Positions 11,277 through 17,028 of a stretch of DNA of 41,077 nt are shown here, one piece after another; the stretch's first letter is position 1; every line of letters begins with the position of its first letter. Both the position numbers and the translations under genes were made by a program. Under the pieces are notes generated by a model. It was not told where the DNA came from. It saw only the letters and a list, made by a program, of their open reading frames with translations, and ran no database searches. Origin of the DNA: Bacteroidota bacterium (GTDB lineage: Bacteria; Bacteroidota; Ignavibacteria; Kryptoniales; JAKASW01); contig JAKAGT010000034.1 of NCBI GenBank assembly GCA_021825585.1, positions 1-41,077 of the forward strand, given 5' to 3'.

Positions 11277-12350
11277 TTGAAAAAAACTCACGTTGCGCTG
11301 CTCGGCCTTTTTATCACTGTCGGAGTGGTGATTCTTGTCCTCGGAATCTTCCTGGTCGGGGAACAGCAGGGTATCTTCACCAAATCGATAGACGTCTATG
11401 CCAGGTTCAATTCGGTCGAGGGCCTGAGGAATGGGGCGGCTGTGCGGCTGCTCGGAATCGATGTGGGAACTGTATCGGGTATCCGAATCTGGAACAATGT
11501 GGCTCTTGTCGAATTAAGAATATTCTCCGATTCGAGGAAGTTCATCAAGGACAATTCGCGCGCCATGCTTGAAACCGAGGGCCTGGTCGGCAACAAGTTC
11601 GTAATCCTTACTCCGGGCACGGAGGGCGCCCCGTCGATCCAGCCGCTGGACACGCTGAGCTCGATTGAAGAGCCGCAGCTGTCGCAAATCATCCTGGAAA
11701 CCCGCGAGACTATCGCCAGCGTGAAGAACATGGTGGACCAGTTTTCAGGAATCCTGAAGGACGTCCGCGAAGGAAAGGGCACAATCGGGAAGCTTGTGAC
11801 CGATGAGAGCGTCTACTTCGCGCTGAGGCGCGCCACCTACGAAGCCGATTCAAGCCTGAAGAAGGTTTCAGACAAGTTTACCGACATGGCGAACGTCGTC
11901 ACCGGTCTCAGCATATCGTTCAACCGCCTCGCCGACAAGACAGATTCGGTCCTGTCGAATGTGAACCTCGTGGTGAAGAACTTCGATACTACCGCATCGA
12001 ACATAAAACTGATGGTAAGCCAGGTGGATACCGGTCATGGTCTCGTCGCGTCGCTTCTGCACGACCGTTCGGTATACGACACGACCCTGCAGATCGTCTC
12101 TACCACTCTATCAGCTGTCAAGGAAGCTCAACTCGGTCTTCAGAAGTTCGCCGGAAATATGGAGGCCCTGCGGCACAACTGGCTGTTCAGCAGCTACTTT
12201 GCGGGACAGGCCCAGGACGAGTACACGAGGAAGGAACAGCAACTGAAGCAGATCGAGGTACAGATACAGGCGAGGAACGAGCAGCTGGACCATATGCAGA
12301 AACAGCTGAGAGAAATTCAGGAGAAGCTGAAGAAAGCGGGCGGGGGATGA
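11277..12350 (+). CDS. MlaD-like MCE domain protein
   Basis: A 357-residue protein, probably starting at TTG 11277 (AGGGA about 10 nt upstream). One N-terminal membrane anchor (about 6-27) is followed by an MCE domain (about 36-115) with FNSVEGLRNGAAVRLLGIDVG, ILTPGTEG and neighbouring blocks. A long helical region follows, with a coiled coil rich in Gln and Glu at the C-terminus (about 300-352). It is a periplasmic lipid shuttle anchored to the MlaE/MlaF complex. It is longer than E. coli MlaD (183 residues) and closer to the longer MCE proteins of Chlorobi and Bacteroidota, whose helices may bridge the periplasm. No MlaB or MlaC gene is present here. Confidence 0.88.
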   Translation: MKKTHVALLGLFITVGVVILVLGIFLVGEQQGIFTKSIDVYARFNSVEGLRNGAAVRLLGIDVGTVSGIRIWNNVALVELRIFSDSRKFIKDNSRAMLETEGLVGNKFVILTPGTEGAPSIQPLDTLSSIEEPQLSQIILETRETIASVKNMVDQFSGILKDVREGKGTIGKLVTDESVYFALRRATYEADSSLKKVSDKFTDMANVVTGLSISFNRLADKTDSVLSNVNLVVKNFDTTASNIKLMVSQVDTGHGLVASLLHDRSVYDTTLQIVSTTLSAVKEAQLGLQKFAGNMEALRHNWLFSSYFAGQAQDEYTRKEQQLKQIEVQIQARNEQLDHMQKQLREIQEKLKKAGGG

Positions 12351-12355
12351 ACAGA

Positions 12356-12403
12356 GACCTTGCGAATGTTCCCCGTCAATAGCCTGGATGCATTCGCAAG
12401 GTC
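12356..12403. terminator. Perfect 13-bp hairpin between convergent genes
   Basis: GACCTTGCGAATG (12356-12368) and CATTCGCAAGGTC (12391-12403) are exact reverse complements with a 22-nt loop. The hairpin starts 5 nt after the mlaD-like stop and ends 6 nt before the stop of the convergent membrane-protein gene. The position suggests a shared transcript end, though no T run follows on either strand. Confidence 0.6.
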
Positions 12404-12409
12404 GCCAGA

Positions 12410-12790
12410 CTAAGCTTCCGCGGCCCGGATCTTCCGGAACCTCAGGTTGATGGACACTCCTTTGGCGCCAAGAATAATCAAAGCTACCCCACCCGCCAGA
12501 AATGCGGCGGCAAAGTCGGTCTGCAGCGGAGCCATCCTGCTCCAGGCTTCCTTACCCGTAATCCCCATGGTGACCAGCAGCGTCAAAACGCTCGCCCCTC
12601 CGATCTCGAACAGTATCAGTCCCACGACAATGTTTGCTACAGACTCCAGCATCGGAAGCTTCGGCGGCGGCGCTGGTATCTTCCTCCCCAGTTTCTCGTA
12701 CTCGATTTGCAGTTCCAGCGCGTGACGTCTCTCCTGCTGGTCGAAAAACGCCGATATGATCACCGCCGCGATGAATATCGATGTAAACAT
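12410..12790 (-). CDS. Small membrane protein, DUF6249-like
   Basis: A 126-residue protein with one N-terminal hydrophobic segment (about 2-15), a charged stretch QQERRHALELQIEYEKLGRK (17-36), a Pro-rich turn PAPPPKLP, and two further membrane segments (about 51-75 and 92-109). The short membrane helix plus an R-H-A-L-E-L charged motif is reminiscent of the DUF6249-type proteins often found with ECF sigma genes in Bacteroidota; the assignment is tentative. It lies 3 nt after the next small membrane gene and is probably co-transcribed from an ECF-type promoter at 13167-13197. Confidence 0.6.
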   Translation of the reverse strand: MFTSIFIAAVIISAFFDQQERRHALELQIEYEKLGRKIPAPPPKLPMLESVANIVVGLILFEIGGASVLTLLVTMGITGKEAWSRMAPLQTDFAAAFLAGGVALIILGAKGVSINLRFRKIRAAEA

Positions 12791-12793
12791 GGT

Positions 12794-13144
12794 TCACCCT
12801 TTCTTCAATATCTTTATGTCCCTCGCTCCCATCATAAGAAGGAGGACTGCCACCAACATCAGTTCAGCCAGCAGGACAATGATCGGGCCGGCGTATTGCA
12901 GTCCTATCTTCGCGGTAAAGACGATTCCCCCTGCTGCCACGAGTATTAAAAGCCCCGCCATCGTGAGTGTCGTAGTCACTCTTCCCCAATTTTGAGGTCT
13001 GAACGGTTTCGGCTCGACATTGTTTATCAAATCCATGAGAGCCTTCTTATGCCTGATTTCCCGTTCACGGTATTCCCAGAATCCCCACGCCGCGATCAGG
13101 ACAATCATGATGACAATTTGAATTGCATTGCTTTCGTAGTTCAT
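12794..13144 (-). CDS. Small membrane protein paired with 12410 gene
   Basis: A 116-residue protein. A hydrophobic N-terminus (about 8-24) is followed by WEYREREIRHKKALMDLI (charged, 23-40), then two membrane helices (about 58-78 and 84-104). The layout resembles the neighbouring 126-residue protein, so they may be distant paralogues forming a membrane complex. A strong AGGAG precedes the ATG. A promoter-like TGAAAG-AAAA-N15-TCTAAT ends 22 nt upstream of the start codon, so the mRNA leader would be very short. It is divergent from the ECF sigma gene and probably belongs to its regulon. Confidence 0.65.
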   Translation of the reverse strand: MNYESNAIQIVIMIVLIAAWGFWEYREREIRHKKALMDLINNVEPKPFRPQNWGRVTTTLTMAGLLILVAAGGIVFTAKIGLQYAGPIIVLLAELMLVAVLLLMMGARDIKILKKG

Positions 13145-13166
13145 TTTCTTCTCCTTGCTTCAACCT

Positions 13167-13197
13167 ATTAGACCGATGCCGGCGATTTTTTCTTTCA
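13167..13197 (-). promoter_or_regulatory. ECF-type promoter for the two membrane proteins
   Basis: On the minus strand, TGAAAGAAAA (13197-13188), a 15-nt spacer and TCTAAT (13172-13167). TCTAAT/GTCTAA is a common ECF -10, and TGAAA-rich -35 elements are usual for ECF sigmas. An AGGAG ribosome site follows about 10 nt after the -10. The same half sites with identical spacing occur on the plus strand. Confidence 0.6.
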
Positions 13198-13208
13198 CTG
13201 AAAGAAAA
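13188..13208. promoter_or_regulatory. 21-nt palindrome shared by divergent promoters
   Basis: TTTTCTTTCA, a central C, and TGAAAGAAAA form a perfect 10-bp inverted repeat. Each arm serves as the upstream half of one divergent promoter-like element. It could be merely two facing -35 boxes or also an operator. Confidence 0.7.
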
Positions 13209-13229
13209 TTACCTTGCATGAAGTCTAAT
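13199..13229 (+). promoter_or_regulatory. ECF-type autoregulatory promoter for the sigma gene
   Basis: TGAAAGAAAA (13199-13208), 15 nt, TCTAAT (13224-13229). It is identical in both boxes and in spacing to the minus-strand element. Transcription from here would start near 13236, which excludes the ATG at 13218 as the sigma start codon. Confidence 0.6.
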
Positions 13230-13262
13230 GTTTTGTATGCGGTACGAACGGCATTGTAAGAT

Positions 13263-13811
13263 CTGAGCAGAAAGGGAACCACGAAACCGGCAGCTGGTGA
13301 CTCGTTCAAGGACATCGTTGGCCTGTATTCCGGGCGGGTGTTCAACCTTGCCCTTAAGATGCTCGGAAACCGGAACGACGCCGAGGAAGCCGTCCAGGAC
13401 GTTTTCATGAGAGTGTATTCATCTCTGAAGGACTTCCGCGGCGACTCCAGTCTGTCGACATGGATATGGCGAATCACGGCAAACGTCTGCCTTACGCGCA
13501 GGAAGAAGAGGGACCCTGCCGGGGTCAGCCTGGATGACTCCGGGATTGATCCCCCGGATGGAAGAGTCGAGGATTCTTCGAGACAAGAGAAATCGGTCTA
13601 TGCCAGCGAGAGGCGGAAAATTCTGGACGCCTGCATAGCGCTCCTCCCTCCCAACGAATCGGCGGTCGTGACGCTGTTTTACTTCGAAGAATTATCCTAC
13701 GAGGAAATATCGGACATCTTGAGACTTCCTGTCGGCACTGTATCCACCGCCCTTCACAGGGGAAGGCAGCGGCTGGCCGAAATGCTCAGAGAAAGAAAGG
13801 ACGAGCTATGA
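13263..13811 (+). CDS. ECF-type RNA polymerase sigma factor
   Basis: About 182 residues if begun at the in-frame CTG 13263. Region 2 is clear: SFKDIVGLYSGRVFNLALKM, then LGNRNDAEEAVQDVF and the DFRGDSSLSTWIWRITANV core. Region 4 is also clear: LLPPNESAVVTLFYFEELSY, then EEISDILRLPVGTVSTALHR as the helix-turn-helix. The start is uncertain. No ATG, GTG or TTG lies between the in-frame TAA at 13257 and the GTG at 13338, and starting at 13338 would remove the first helix of region 2. A non-standard start or a sequence error is possible. The stop overlaps the next gene, an anti-sigma factor, by 4 nt (ATGA). Confidence 0.88.
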   Translation: MSRKGTTKPAAGDSFKDIVGLYSGRVFNLALKMLGNRNDAEEAVQDVFMRVYSSLKDFRGDSSLSTWIWRITANVCLTRRKKRDPAGVSLDDSGIDPPDGRVEDSSRQEKSVYASERRKILDACIALLPPNESAVVTLFYFEELSYEEISDILRLPVGTVSTALHRGRQRLAEMLRERKDEL

Positions 13812-14236
13812 ATTGCGAAGAGTTCAAGAGGGCCATAAACGACCATATCGATGCGAGACAGGCGATAGCGAAGGACGGGCTTCCGGCGGATATTCGTTCT
13901 CATGCGCACGGCTGTCTCTCCTGCACCCTGTATCTCGAGTCGGTGAGCAAGGTCGACGAAGTGCTGAGAAACGCACGAAGTGCCGGAATCCCTGCGGAAC
14001 TGTACGATAAACTCATGGACATCGGCTCCGCACACCGCACCAGTCCCGCGCTCGCGTCGTTGGAACCGCTGGTTATCTATGTACTGAGAATATTACTCCC
14101 AGCCATTGTCGTGTGGACGGGCGCCCTGTTGCTTCCCGCCTTTCCGCACGTGATTGTAGAGATCACACTAATGATCTTTGCAATGGTACTGGTATTCGAG
14201 AAGCTCGGACGGAGGATAGTGACGGATAGGGTGTGA
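13808..14236 (+). CDS. Zinc-finger-type anti-sigma factor with membrane anchor
   Basis: A 142-residue protein. The N-terminal cytoplasmic domain has C3 and the H-A-H-G-C-L-S-C motif (about 32-39), the H-x3-C-x2-C pattern of the zf-HC2/ZAS anti-sigma fold. After a linker there are two membrane segments (about 83-105 and 110-128). It is coupled by a 4-nt overlap to the ECF sigma gene, the standard arrangement for a sigma factor and its membrane-bound inhibitor. The signal that releases the sigma factor is unknown, and the protein has no large periplasmic sensor domain. Confidence 0.85.
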   Translation: MNCEEFKRAINDHIDARQAIAKDGLPADIRSHAHGCLSCTLYLESVSKVDEVLRNARSAGIPAELYDKLMDIGSAHRTSPALASLEPLVIYVLRILLPAIVVWTGALLLPAFPHVIVEITLMIFAMVLVFEKLGRRIVTDRV

Positions 14237-14299
14237 AGTTGGAACGGTAGAATAACGGAAAGTTTCCTCTCTGTGGATCTTGCACCTCTTGTGGTATGA

Positions 14300-14324
14300 T
14301 TGCAGGCCCTTCCCTGCAAGTTTT
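14300..14324 (+). terminator. Hairpin after the sigma/anti-sigma genes
   Basis: TTGCAGG (14300-14306), a 6-nt loop, CCTGCAA (14313-14319), then GTTTT. It is short, with only four T residues, but well placed to end the sigma/anti-sigma transcript 64 nt after the stop. Confidence 0.5.
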
Positions 14325-14360
14325 GGATTTCGGAGCCCGGGAGACTATTTTCCCTAGGCG

Positions 14361-14873
14361 ATGCAGAAAGTCCTTTTATTAGTGGTGCTCTCCGTTTCCT
14401 TGCTCGGATGCACCCACGGCCTCGAGCCTATCAGTGTTCAGCCCGGATTCAGCGGCACGGTCCGGTTTATTTCTGCCTGGCCTCCTCCTGACAGCGTCCA
14501 CGACATCAGGGTCGTTGCCTTCTACCATTACCCTCCTCAGAACATCATCGGCGATGTACTGGGCGGCAATGCTAAAGTCTATCCTCCCATAGGCACGAGC
14601 GCCCCAGCCTTCTTTGTCGACACATTGTCCTATAATTTCACGCTCGACTCGGCTGCAGTCTTCCAGTATGTAGTTGTGGCGATGCAATACGGTCCGAACC
14701 TGCTTTCCGACTGGAAAGTCGTCGGCGCCTACGGGTATTCACATGGGGTCGGCTCGCCGAAGTCGGTCACCGTCAAGCCAAACAGTTTCATAAGCGGAAT
14801 CGATATCGATGTTGATTTCAAGAACACGCCTCCTACTCCCGGCGGCACTTCTGCTTCTACTGCTTCAAAGTGA
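14361..14873 (+). CDS. Lipoprotein upstream of a TonB-dependent receptor
   Basis: A 170-residue protein with a type II signal peptide (MQKVLLLVVLSVSLLGC, lipobox LLGC, Cys17). The mature part is beta-rich (PGFSGTVRFISAWPPPDSV, DIRVVAFYHYPPQ, then a long strand-rich region) and ends in a flexible Thr/Ser tail. I do not recognise a named family. Its last 65 nt overlap, in another frame, the signal-peptide codons of the TonB-dependent receptor gene. It is probably an outer-membrane or periplasmic-face lipoprotein working with that receptor, analogous in position (not in sequence) to SusD-like or other receptor partners. Confidence 0.75.
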   Translation: MQKVLLLVVLSVSLLGCTHGLEPISVQPGFSGTVRFISAWPPPDSVHDIRVVAFYHYPPQNIIGDVLGGNAKVYPPIGTSAPAFFVDTLSYNFTLDSAAVFQYVVVAMQYGPNLLSDWKVVGAYGYSHGVGSPKSVTVKPNSFISGIDIDVDFKNTPPTPGGTSASTASK

Positions 14874-17028
14874 AGGGGTCGCCCAGGCAAGACTGGACGG
14901 TGTCGTTCGGTCTGCAGAGGACTCCAGCGCGGTTGCAGGCGCAACCGTCCTGCTGCAGTCCCGGAACTTACAGAAGCCGCAGAAACTCGGTACGCTGACC
15001 GGAAAGAATGGAAACTTTTCCATCAAGAATCTCGACGGGGGAAACTACCTGGTCTCCGTTTCCATGATCGGGTTCAGGCCGTTCAGCGGGACCATTTCAC
15101 TGGCGGTGAATGAAGCGAGGCGAATAGAAATCTATCTGCAGCCTTCACCCTTCCAAACGCAACAGGTTGTCGTAACCGCAAGCAAGCGGAGGCAGCTGCT
15201 AACCGATGTACCTTTCAGTGTAAGTCTCGTCAGTTCGGCTTCCATCGAGAGAAGGAACATCATCTCTCTCGACGATGCCCTCCGCTATGTGCCGGGGGTG
15301 AACGTCGTTCAGGACCAGGTTAACATACGCGGCTCGAGCGGGTACGCCCGCGGAATCGGCAGCCGCGTGCTCCTACTCGTCGACGGGATACCGATGCTCA
15401 CCGGCGACACGGGCGAGGCCGTGTGGGAATCGATTCCGATGTCGGACGTCGAACGTGTTGAGGTTCTCAAGGAGGCGGGGTCCGCACTCTACGGCTCCAA
15501 TGCACTCGGCGGAGTGATCGATGTGATAACGAAAAACAATGTGGATGTCAACTCGACGGCCGTGAAGATGTACGGCGGCTTCTATGAACAGCCGAGATAT
15601 TCACAGTGGAGGTGGTCCGGCAGCACAAGGTTCTTCCAGGGTGCCTCCGTGACTCATTCCCAGCCGCTCGGACTCGGTGACTTCGGAGTCACAGCTTCCC
15701 TGAGCTTCAAGAAGGACGACGGGTACATCCAGAACGACTACTTCCGGAGATTCAATTTCTTCGCGAAGACCGCCGGGAGCGTCGGACAAAATCAAAACCT
15801 GAAAGTATTCGCGGACGTGTTCGACCAGCATTCCGGCAATTTTCTCTATTGGGAAGATCTCAACAATGCACTCCAGCCGGACCCGGGGACGCTTGGACAG
15901 TGGGTCAATTCAACCAGGGCCAACATCGCCGGGATATACACGCACGTGCTGAGCAGCGACTTCCTGTACATAGTCCGCGGCAGTTACTATTTCAATCACT
16001 GGTACGACAACTTCGGCCAGACCCCAACCGGAATCGGGGACTCATCGACCTCCAATCTCGGTTACCTTGAGTTTCAGGGCACATGGAATTACGACCCCGC
16101 CACCGTATTCACGTTCGGGATTGACGGCCAGGCGGACTTCATGAGCTCCAACGTGTTCACGAGAAGGCAGAGCAATTCCGGAGCGGCGTACCTGCAGGCC
16201 GAAAGAAGGTTCGACCGCCTTCATACCACCCTCGGAGCGCGCTACGATATTGAGGATATTCAGGGTAAAGCGGCCTTCGAGCAGTTGAGTCCGAAGCTGG
16301 GACTGGTTTACGACCTTGGCGGGGAAGCATCGCTGCGGGGTTCTATCGGGACCGGTTTCAGGGCCCCGAGCCTGGCCGAGACTTACGCGACCACTCAGAC
16401 CGGGGGAGTTGAGATAATCGCTAACCCGAATCTTTTGCCCGAAAAGAGCCTTTCGGAGGAGATCGGCGCCAGGGTGCCAATTTGGCCGTTCGCAATGATA
16501 GATGCCGCAGTCTTCCAGAACGACTTCTGGAACATGATAGAGCCGGAATTCACTCCGGCCGGGCAAATAGAGTTTCAGAACGTGACCCGCGCGCGGATAC
16601 AGGGATACGAGATCGACGCTTCGACCAACGCAGGCACTGATTTCCTCACCCTCAGAGCCAGCTACACCTATATTTACCCGCTCGATCTTACGACCCACGA
16701 GATTCTCAAGTACAGATCGAGGAAACTACTTTATATTTCCGCGGACTTCCAGAAATACATTTACACGGCTTCGGTCGATTTCAGGTACATCAGCGCTTTC
16801 GAAAATTACGACAGGCAATTAGTAGAACTGGGAATCGTGAAGAACGGCAACAACCGCGTCCCGGCATACGTAACCGACATCCGGGCCGGTGTCGACCTGA
16901 CTTCAATCGGATATCCGATCCAACTCAGCTTTATCGTCAACAATGCTCTCGAAGATTACTACGTCGAGATGATCGGCAACATGGCGCCGATAAGAAACTA
17001 TTCCCTGGTGCTCTCCACGAATTTCTAA
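14809..17028 (+). CDS. TonB-dependent outer-membrane receptor with CarboxypepD-reg domain
   Basis: A 739-residue protein. Signal peptide MLISRTRLLLPAALLLLLLQ is cleaved near AQA (about 26). A carboxypeptidase-regulatory-like beta-sandwich follows (27-113, ARLDGVVRSAEDSSAVAGAT), then a TonB-box-like stretch QQVVVTASKR, a plug domain (about 130-240, with DALRYVPGVNV, VNIRGSS, VLLLVDGIPM, VEVLKEAGSALYGSNALGGV) and a 22-strand barrel ending in NYSLVLSTNF with a terminal Phe. The family imports vitamin, metal or peptide-bound ligands. The substrate cannot be read from the sequence. The start lies inside the lipoprotein gene, which makes the two translationally linked. Confidence 0.93.
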   Translation: MLISRTRLLLPAALLLLLLQSEGVAQARLDGVVRSAEDSSAVAGATVLLQSRNLQKPQKLGTLTGKNGNFSIKNLDGGNYLVSVSMIGFRPFSGTISLAVNEARRIEIYLQPSPFQTQQVVVTASKRRQLLTDVPFSVSLVSSASIERRNIISLDDALRYVPGVNVVQDQVNIRGSSGYARGIGSRVLLLVDGIPMLTGDTGEAVWESIPMSDVERVEVLKEAGSALYGSNALGGVIDVITKNNVDVNSTAVKMYGGFYEQPRYSQWRWSGSTRFFQGASVTHSQPLGLGDFGVTASLSFKKDDGYIQNDYFRRFNFFAKTAGSVGQNQNLKVFADVFDQHSGNFLYWEDLNNALQPDPGTLGQWVNSTRANIAGIYTHVLSSDFLYIVRGSYYFNHWYDNFGQTPTGIGDSSTSNLGYLEFQGTWNYDPATVFTFGIDGQADFMSSNVFTRRQSNSGAAYLQAERRFDRLHTTLGARYDIEDIQGKAAFEQLSPKLGLVYDLGGEASLRGSIGTGFRAPSLAETYATTQTGGVEIIANPNLLPEKSLSEEIGARVPIWPFAMIDAAVFQNDFWNMIEPEFTPAGQIEFQNVTRARIQGYEIDASTNAGTDFLTLRASYTYIYPLDLTTHEILKYRSRKLLYISADFQKYIYTASVDFRYISAFENYDRQLVELGIVKNGNNRVPAYVTDIRAGVDLTSIGYPIQLSFIVNNALEDYYVEMIGNMAPIRNYSLVLSTNF

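Follow-up and report, generated by a model that had tools for sequence, protein, structure and literature searches.

A putative divergent ECF promoter pair with back-to-back -35 elements beside a sigma factor gene of a Bacteroidota bacterium

Among described systems, the closest to the locus reported here are the autoregulated operons of SigW/RsiW in B. subtilis and RpoE in E. coli, which, like this locus, consist of a sigma gene followed by an overlapping gene for a zinc-motif membrane anti-sigma factor, with their own promoter upstream. The -35 consensus of SigW is GAAACCT (PMC6713349), and the -35 element described below begins with TGAAA, as in SigW. The bidirectional promoters of E. coli use one common -10 region, with divergent starts that lie 10-23 bp apart (PMC12825309; PMC10268837).

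The window analyzed here is a stretch of 41,077 nt from a Bacteroidota bacterium (contig JAKAGT010000034.1 of assembly GCA_021825585.1). We read one of its intergenic segments as a divergent promoter pair whose -35 elements stand back to back, 1 bp apart, and would both be recognized by the adjoining ECF sigma factor, with the sigma and anti-sigma genes transcribed rightward and two membrane-protein genes leftward. From the comparisons below, we give this reading a probability of about 0.9.

The twin boxes and the genes around them

Both strands of a stretch of about 62 bases (13167-13229) carry TGAAAGAAAA-N15-TCTAAT. As had been proposed, string and spacing are the same in the two copies: an identical 10-mer, exactly 15 nt, then an identical TCTAAT. 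The features of the locus are as follows; the two copies and the ribosome-binding site were read directly from the sequence.

12410..12790, minus strand: m2, a 126-aa membrane protein encoded second in the divergent unit, with three hydrophobic stretches and a QERRHALELQIEYEKLGRK loop
12794..13144, minus strand: m1, a 116-aa membrane protein with three hydrophobic stretches and a basic YREREIRHKKAL loop; orthologue at the same place in 9/9 congeners
13151..13156, minus strand: ribosome-binding site AAGGAG of the first membrane protein (m1)
13168..13173, minus strand: -10 element GTCTAA of the membrane-protein promoter; 9/10 genus genomes
13197-13167, minus strand: left copy, TGAAAGAAAAAATCGCCGGCATCGGTCTAAT
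13192..13197, minus strand: -35 element TGAAAG of the membrane-protein promoter, its A-tract running on to 13186; 10/10 genus genomes
13188..13208, both strands: inverted repeat TTTTCTTTCA-C-TGAAAGAAAA, the back-to-back -35 elements with 1 bp between them
13199-13229, plus strand: right copy, TGAAAGAAAATTACCTTGCATGAAGTCTAAT
13199..13204, plus strand: -35 element TGAAAG of the sigma/anti-sigma promoter, its A-tract running on to 13208; exact in 9/10 genus genomes
13223..13228, plus strand: -10 element GTCTAA of the sigma/anti-sigma promoter; 10/10 genus genomes
13263..13811, plus strand: ECF sigma factor; Pfam Sigma70_r2 and r4_2, NCBIfam sigma70-ECF over cut-off
13743..13745, plus strand: codon of Ser162 (= SigW Lys170), from alignment to the SigW structure
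13808..14236, plus strand: anti-sigma factor with HxxxCxxC (HAHGCLSC) zinc motif and a hydrophobic hairpin at the C-terminus; overlaps the sigma gene by ATGA

The segment 13188-13208 had been described as a perfect 21-nt palindrome; its arms are perfect over 10 bp each, but the central base is unpaired. In shuffled sequences 0 such repeats were expected, with up to 3 mismatches allowed. TCTAAT, proposed as the second box, is present in both copies, but the conserved -10 unit is GTCTAA; since it begins one base before TCTAAT, the conserved boxes are better written TGAAAG-N18-GTCTAA. The gene positions agree with the outward orientation given in the original prediction, the plus box facing the ECF gene and the minus box facing 12794-13144 and 12410-12790. 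The ribosome site of the membrane proteins does follow almost at once, the minus-strand AAGGAG lying 11 nt past the -10 and 6 nt ahead of the ATG. Transcription is predicted to start near 13234-13236 for the sigma/anti-sigma unit and near 13160-13162 for the membrane proteins. The predicted starts are about 75 bp apart, the -35 centres 7 bp and the two -10s 49 bp edge to edge (13173 and 13223). One sigma-70-type promoter was found in 12300-14400, against 1.2 expected, and none in the intergenic stretch.

The sigma gene matches the NCBIfam sigma70-ECF profile with 105.6 bits (cut-off 42.9). Its frame of 183 codons (about 180-200 aa being expected) contains regions 2 and 4, region 3 being absent, and a two-box promoter with fixed spacing, kept in orthologues, stands ahead of its own operon. 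The closest solved chain is SigW, and the cut-offs of the SigW family (NF007223/TIGR02948) are missed, with 133.7 vs 209 and 119.7 vs 243.1, respectively. The likeliest start appears to be CTG 13263, which aligns with TTG in locus L006; where relatives have their ATG, the window reads AAG (13272), and no in-frame ATG, GTG or TTG was found between the stop at 13257 and GTG 13338. A short frame at 13237-13266 (MRYERHCKI), considered as a leader peptide, was dropped, not being kept in L004. At L012 (G004, 1255-1905), region 2 of the ECF gene contains about 48 extra residues in a frame free of stops; these may be a real in-frame insertion or an assembly fault.

The anti-sigma protein shows the marks of a ZAS, the N-terminal HxxxCxxC and the ATGA overlap with the sigma gene being present in 15/15 TGAAAG loci. 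Among curated anti-sigma families, the protein encoded by 13808..14236 has no Pfam match, and the RsrA model is reached only at E 0.058. Further downstream, a lipoprotein and a TonB-dependent receptor (14361-17028) are encoded in the direction of the sigma unit, both in the window and in L004/L033. These were rejected as part of the unit, as in 8/9 congeners the receptor gene is on the opposite strand and converges with that of the anti-sigma factor; the strand switch in these eight is a local inversion.

Conservation in the genus and across the class

Twelve congeneric genomes were searched for the ECF orthologue, the window genome bringing the total to 13. The orthologue was found in 9/12 (57-76% identity), each time (9/9) with the same neighbour genes as in the window, and all 10 genus genomes with this gene order, the window's included, keep both boxes, the N18 spacing and the 1-nt gap. 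The only departures in the boxes are CGAAAG in the sigma-side -35 of L012 and GTCCAA in the membrane-protein-side -10 of L011; on the sigma side, N18 separates the -35 from GTCTAA in all 10. Most spacer positions vary across the genus while the boxes stay, and in the three congeners without an ECF orthologue the box pair was searched for and is absent. Because both boxes, spacing and gap are kept wherever congeners bear the ECF gene while spacers drift, and are absent without the gene, the twin boxes are not due to chance. The original prediction had likewise held identical boxes and spacing on both strands unlikely to arise by chance, and both are kept in all nine ECF-bearing congeners. Its proposed comparison of relatives with the same gene order came out in its favour, both boxes and spacing being kept in 10/10 genus genomes and at 6 further TGAAAG and 13 TGAAAC loci of the class. 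Within the sigma-side spacer, TTAnnTT (13209-13215) is nearly unchanged in 10/10 genus genomes, although spacers otherwise drift.

In the genome scan that had been suggested, exact matches to TGAAAGAAAA-N15-TCTAAT in the 4.97-Mb genome, with N13-17 allowed, were the two window copies only. Exact TGAAAG-N18-GTCTAA occurs in the 13 genus genomes at 18 pair sites and 4 others, against 9 for the reversed-pattern control, and TGAAAGAAA-N15-GTCTAA with 2 mismatches gave 11 matches in the own genome against 13 in the control. Beyond the pair, no further target exceeded the control among exact and near matches in the 13 genomes, a point against the main reading in that many ECF factors have more targets. 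At this stringency, the regulon looks private, comprising the sigma and anti-sigma genes and the two membrane-protein genes.

The class set comprises 29 loci (16 TGAAAG and 13 TGAAAC), from which L129, L140 and several single-sided motif matches, without an ECF gene nearby, were left out. Outward TGAAA[G/C]-N18-GTC was found on both strands at 29/29 loci (CGAAAG on one side of L012), a count that is biased for the 10 loci found by motif, whose search pattern already required one full promoter and the other -35. The remaining 19, the genus included, were chosen by ECF protein similarity and not by motif, which supports the main reading. The sixth base of the -35 is identical on both sides in 29/29 (G/G in 16, C/C in 13). 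The gap between the -35s runs from 24-219 nt in the TGTAAC loci measured, through 0-31 nt in TGAAAC loci, to 1-3 nt in the window clade (1 nt in 10/10 genus genomes, 2-3 nt in other TGAAAG loci). Since this gap varies while N18 to GTC is kept, the double element is best read as two promoters and not one rigid operator, and the palindrome as a by-product of two -35 elements set back to back, not as a conserved functional unit in itself.

Alternatively, a separate dimeric protein, repressor or activator, might use the inverted repeat as its operator, with the promoters being something else; the near-perfect 21-nt symmetry and the gap of constantly 1 nt in the genus are typical of a homodimer's operator. 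A dimer operator, however, would hold the gap and not the distance to GTC, whereas beyond the genus the half-sites lie 0-31 nt apart (24-219 in the TGTAAC loci measured), yet N18 to GTC is kept. The half-site also changes along with the recognition helix of the sigma factor, and no other regulator gene is conserved beside the repeat, so that we regard a separate operator as very improbable.

Many bacterial promoters fire divergently without evident need (PMC12825309). Only the sigma-side promoter might accordingly be in use, the mirror copy being a relic or a side effect of promoter symmetry, with spurious divergent transcription of the type described for bidirectional promoters of E. coli. 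Against this, the left side is conserved no less than the right, and it comprises a separate -10 at exactly N18, a ribosome-binding site and a two-gene unit that is kept in all congeners; moreover, the symmetry lies at the -35 and not at the -10, which is not the E. coli kind. One-sided use thus seems extremely unlikely, and two outward promoters, both in use, are the reading that we carry forward.

Recognition helix, membrane proteins and proposed mechanism

In the crystal structure of SigW sigma-4 with the -35 element, K170 hydrogen-bonds G'-31, the guanine opposite the sixth base of TGAAAC, while T171 and T168 contact A-34 and R175 contacts G-35 (PMC6713349). The aligned helix reads GTVSTALHRGR in the window and GTVKTRIHRGR in SigW. 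The window sigma keeps the residues for TGAAA and has Ser in place of K170, just where the promoter has G, not C; Ser162 is expected to read this sixth base. Across 49 loci compared, TGAAAC loci have K at 170 in 15/15, with V171 absent, TGTAAC loci have K at 170 and V at 171 in 19/19, and TGAAAG loci have S, A or G at 170 in 15/15. On the tree, the TGAAAG loci form one fully supported branch, and the split between TGAAAC and TGTAAC is weakly supported. Three dialects require a minimum of two changes overall, each dialect change amounting to roughly one event, and the covariation of helix and box would represent about two independent events, not 49; it carries weight because the changed residues match known base contacts. 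The -35 sequence and the recognition helix thus appear to have changed together at least twice (TGTAAC, TGAAAC, TGAAAG) while the layout was kept. The proposal that the boxes are the recognition sequence of the adjoining sigma factor is well supported by this covariation at structure-defined contacts.

Could another sigma factor of the cell read the boxes? ECF factors overlap in specificity, and 13 further matches to this one are present in the genome. Congeners that lack this ECF gene, however, also lack the boxes, the boxes covary with the helix of the adjoining factor, and at the position facing the changed base none of the alignable paralogues shows a small residue (among the 9 alignable ECF paralogues of the genome, position 170 is K/R in 6, E in 2 and L in 1; small residues 0/9). 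Recognition by another sigma factor is therefore hard to credit, and the adjoining sigma factor is preferred. Because no alignable paralogue has a small residue at 170, the TGAAAG dialect may even insulate the window sigma from the other ECF factors.

Orthologues of m2 were found in 9/9 congeners and at L035, L036, L121, L122, L123 and L126. Neither m1 nor m2 has a match in Pfam, the gathering score of DUF6249 (PF19762) included. Profile comparison gave probabilities of 69.5% for m1 vs DUF6249, 61% for m1 vs m2 and 8.5% for m2 vs DUF6249, which is only suggestive of a relationship between m1 and DUF6249. In TGAAAC loci, the left neighbour belongs to the small membrane protein family DUF6249 (52-79 bits, over the Pfam gathering score), and in the window clade m1 and m2 occupy its place. 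When PF19762 was searched in 148 genomes of the phylum, 42 exceeded the cut-off and 30 loci were fetched (L154-L183); an ECF gene adjoins DUF6249 in 29/30, 27 of them divergent. Outward TGNAAC-N17..19-GTC boxes, most of which read TGTAAC and often TGTAAC-N18-GTC, stand on both sides in 17/29 and on at least one side in 24/29; their absence from 5/29 weighs against the main reading. L166 has TGTAAC repeats but only about 11-13 nt to GTC on both sides, a spacing unlike all others. Literature searches on TGTAAC in Bacteroidetes and on a link of sigma factors to DUF6249 found nothing relevant. Within a Bacteroidota-wide ECF/DUF6249 module, the window unit would be a derived member, and co-regulation of the two membrane proteins by the sigma factor is strongly implied by their promoter.

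In the mechanism that we propose, the zinc-type membrane anti-sigma factor would hold the sigma factor until an envelope signal and then release it. On either strand, the freed sigma, with RNA polymerase, would read TGAAAG (plus the A-tract) together with GTCTAA, the two spaced by 18 nt. The rightward output would be sigma and anti-sigma, that is, positive autoregulation with a co-made inhibitor, and the leftward output the two small membrane proteins. Because the starts are about 75 bp and the -35 centres only 7 bp apart, two polymerases at the adjoining -35s should compete, alternate or just abut. A further idea, which we offer tentatively and think somewhat less probable than its negation, is that loss of Lys/Arg at the helix position, together with the move of both promoters to TGAAAG, created a private third dialect. 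The sigma factor would then be insulated and serve one compact symmetric double promoter, where two holoenzymes with the same sigma exclude each other and one polymerase site is shared between inhibitor-coupled sigma synthesis and membrane-protein synthesis.

Comparison with known systems

The analysis gives a predicted recognition sequence for an otherwise uncharacterized sigma factor and names its likely output, two small membrane proteins. It also ties DUF6249, unstudied in the literature searched, to ECF regulation across the phylum. Three dialects of one promoter pair with matching residue changes are a natural experiment on a sigma factor rewiring its own promoter with the target kept, and from the matches it can be predicted which single substitutions should switch specificity. 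With only 1 bp between its back-to-back -35s, the locus would be a clean test bed for polymerase competition.

DUF6249 loci resemble the window in promoter grammar and in where the gene lies and how it is oriented with respect to the ECF gene; their proteins share with the window proteins a three-helix layout in which a basic RHKERM-like loop follows the first helix. The window clade differs in having, instead of the DUF6249 gene, two proteins that lack a Pfam match. The bidirectional promoters of E. coli resemble the window in using pseudo-symmetric DNA for two opposite starts, with possible polymerase competition. The shared -10 and starts about 10-23 bp apart of that type are not seen here, however, the -10s lying 49 bp apart: in the window it is the -35s that adjoin, each with a separate -10, the predicted starts are about 75 bp apart, and a dedicated ECF sigma would be used. 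Unlike autoregulated operons with a TGAAAC/GGAAC-type -35, such as those of SigW/RsiW and RpoE, the locus has a -35 of TGAAAG plus an A-tract, a helix residue Ser, not Lys/Arg, and a spacer of 18 to GTC, and its only detected targets are the two back-to-back promoters. It thus belongs to the familiar class of autoregulated ECF sigma modules, and what is new is its own -35 dialect together with an unusually compact, symmetric double promoter.
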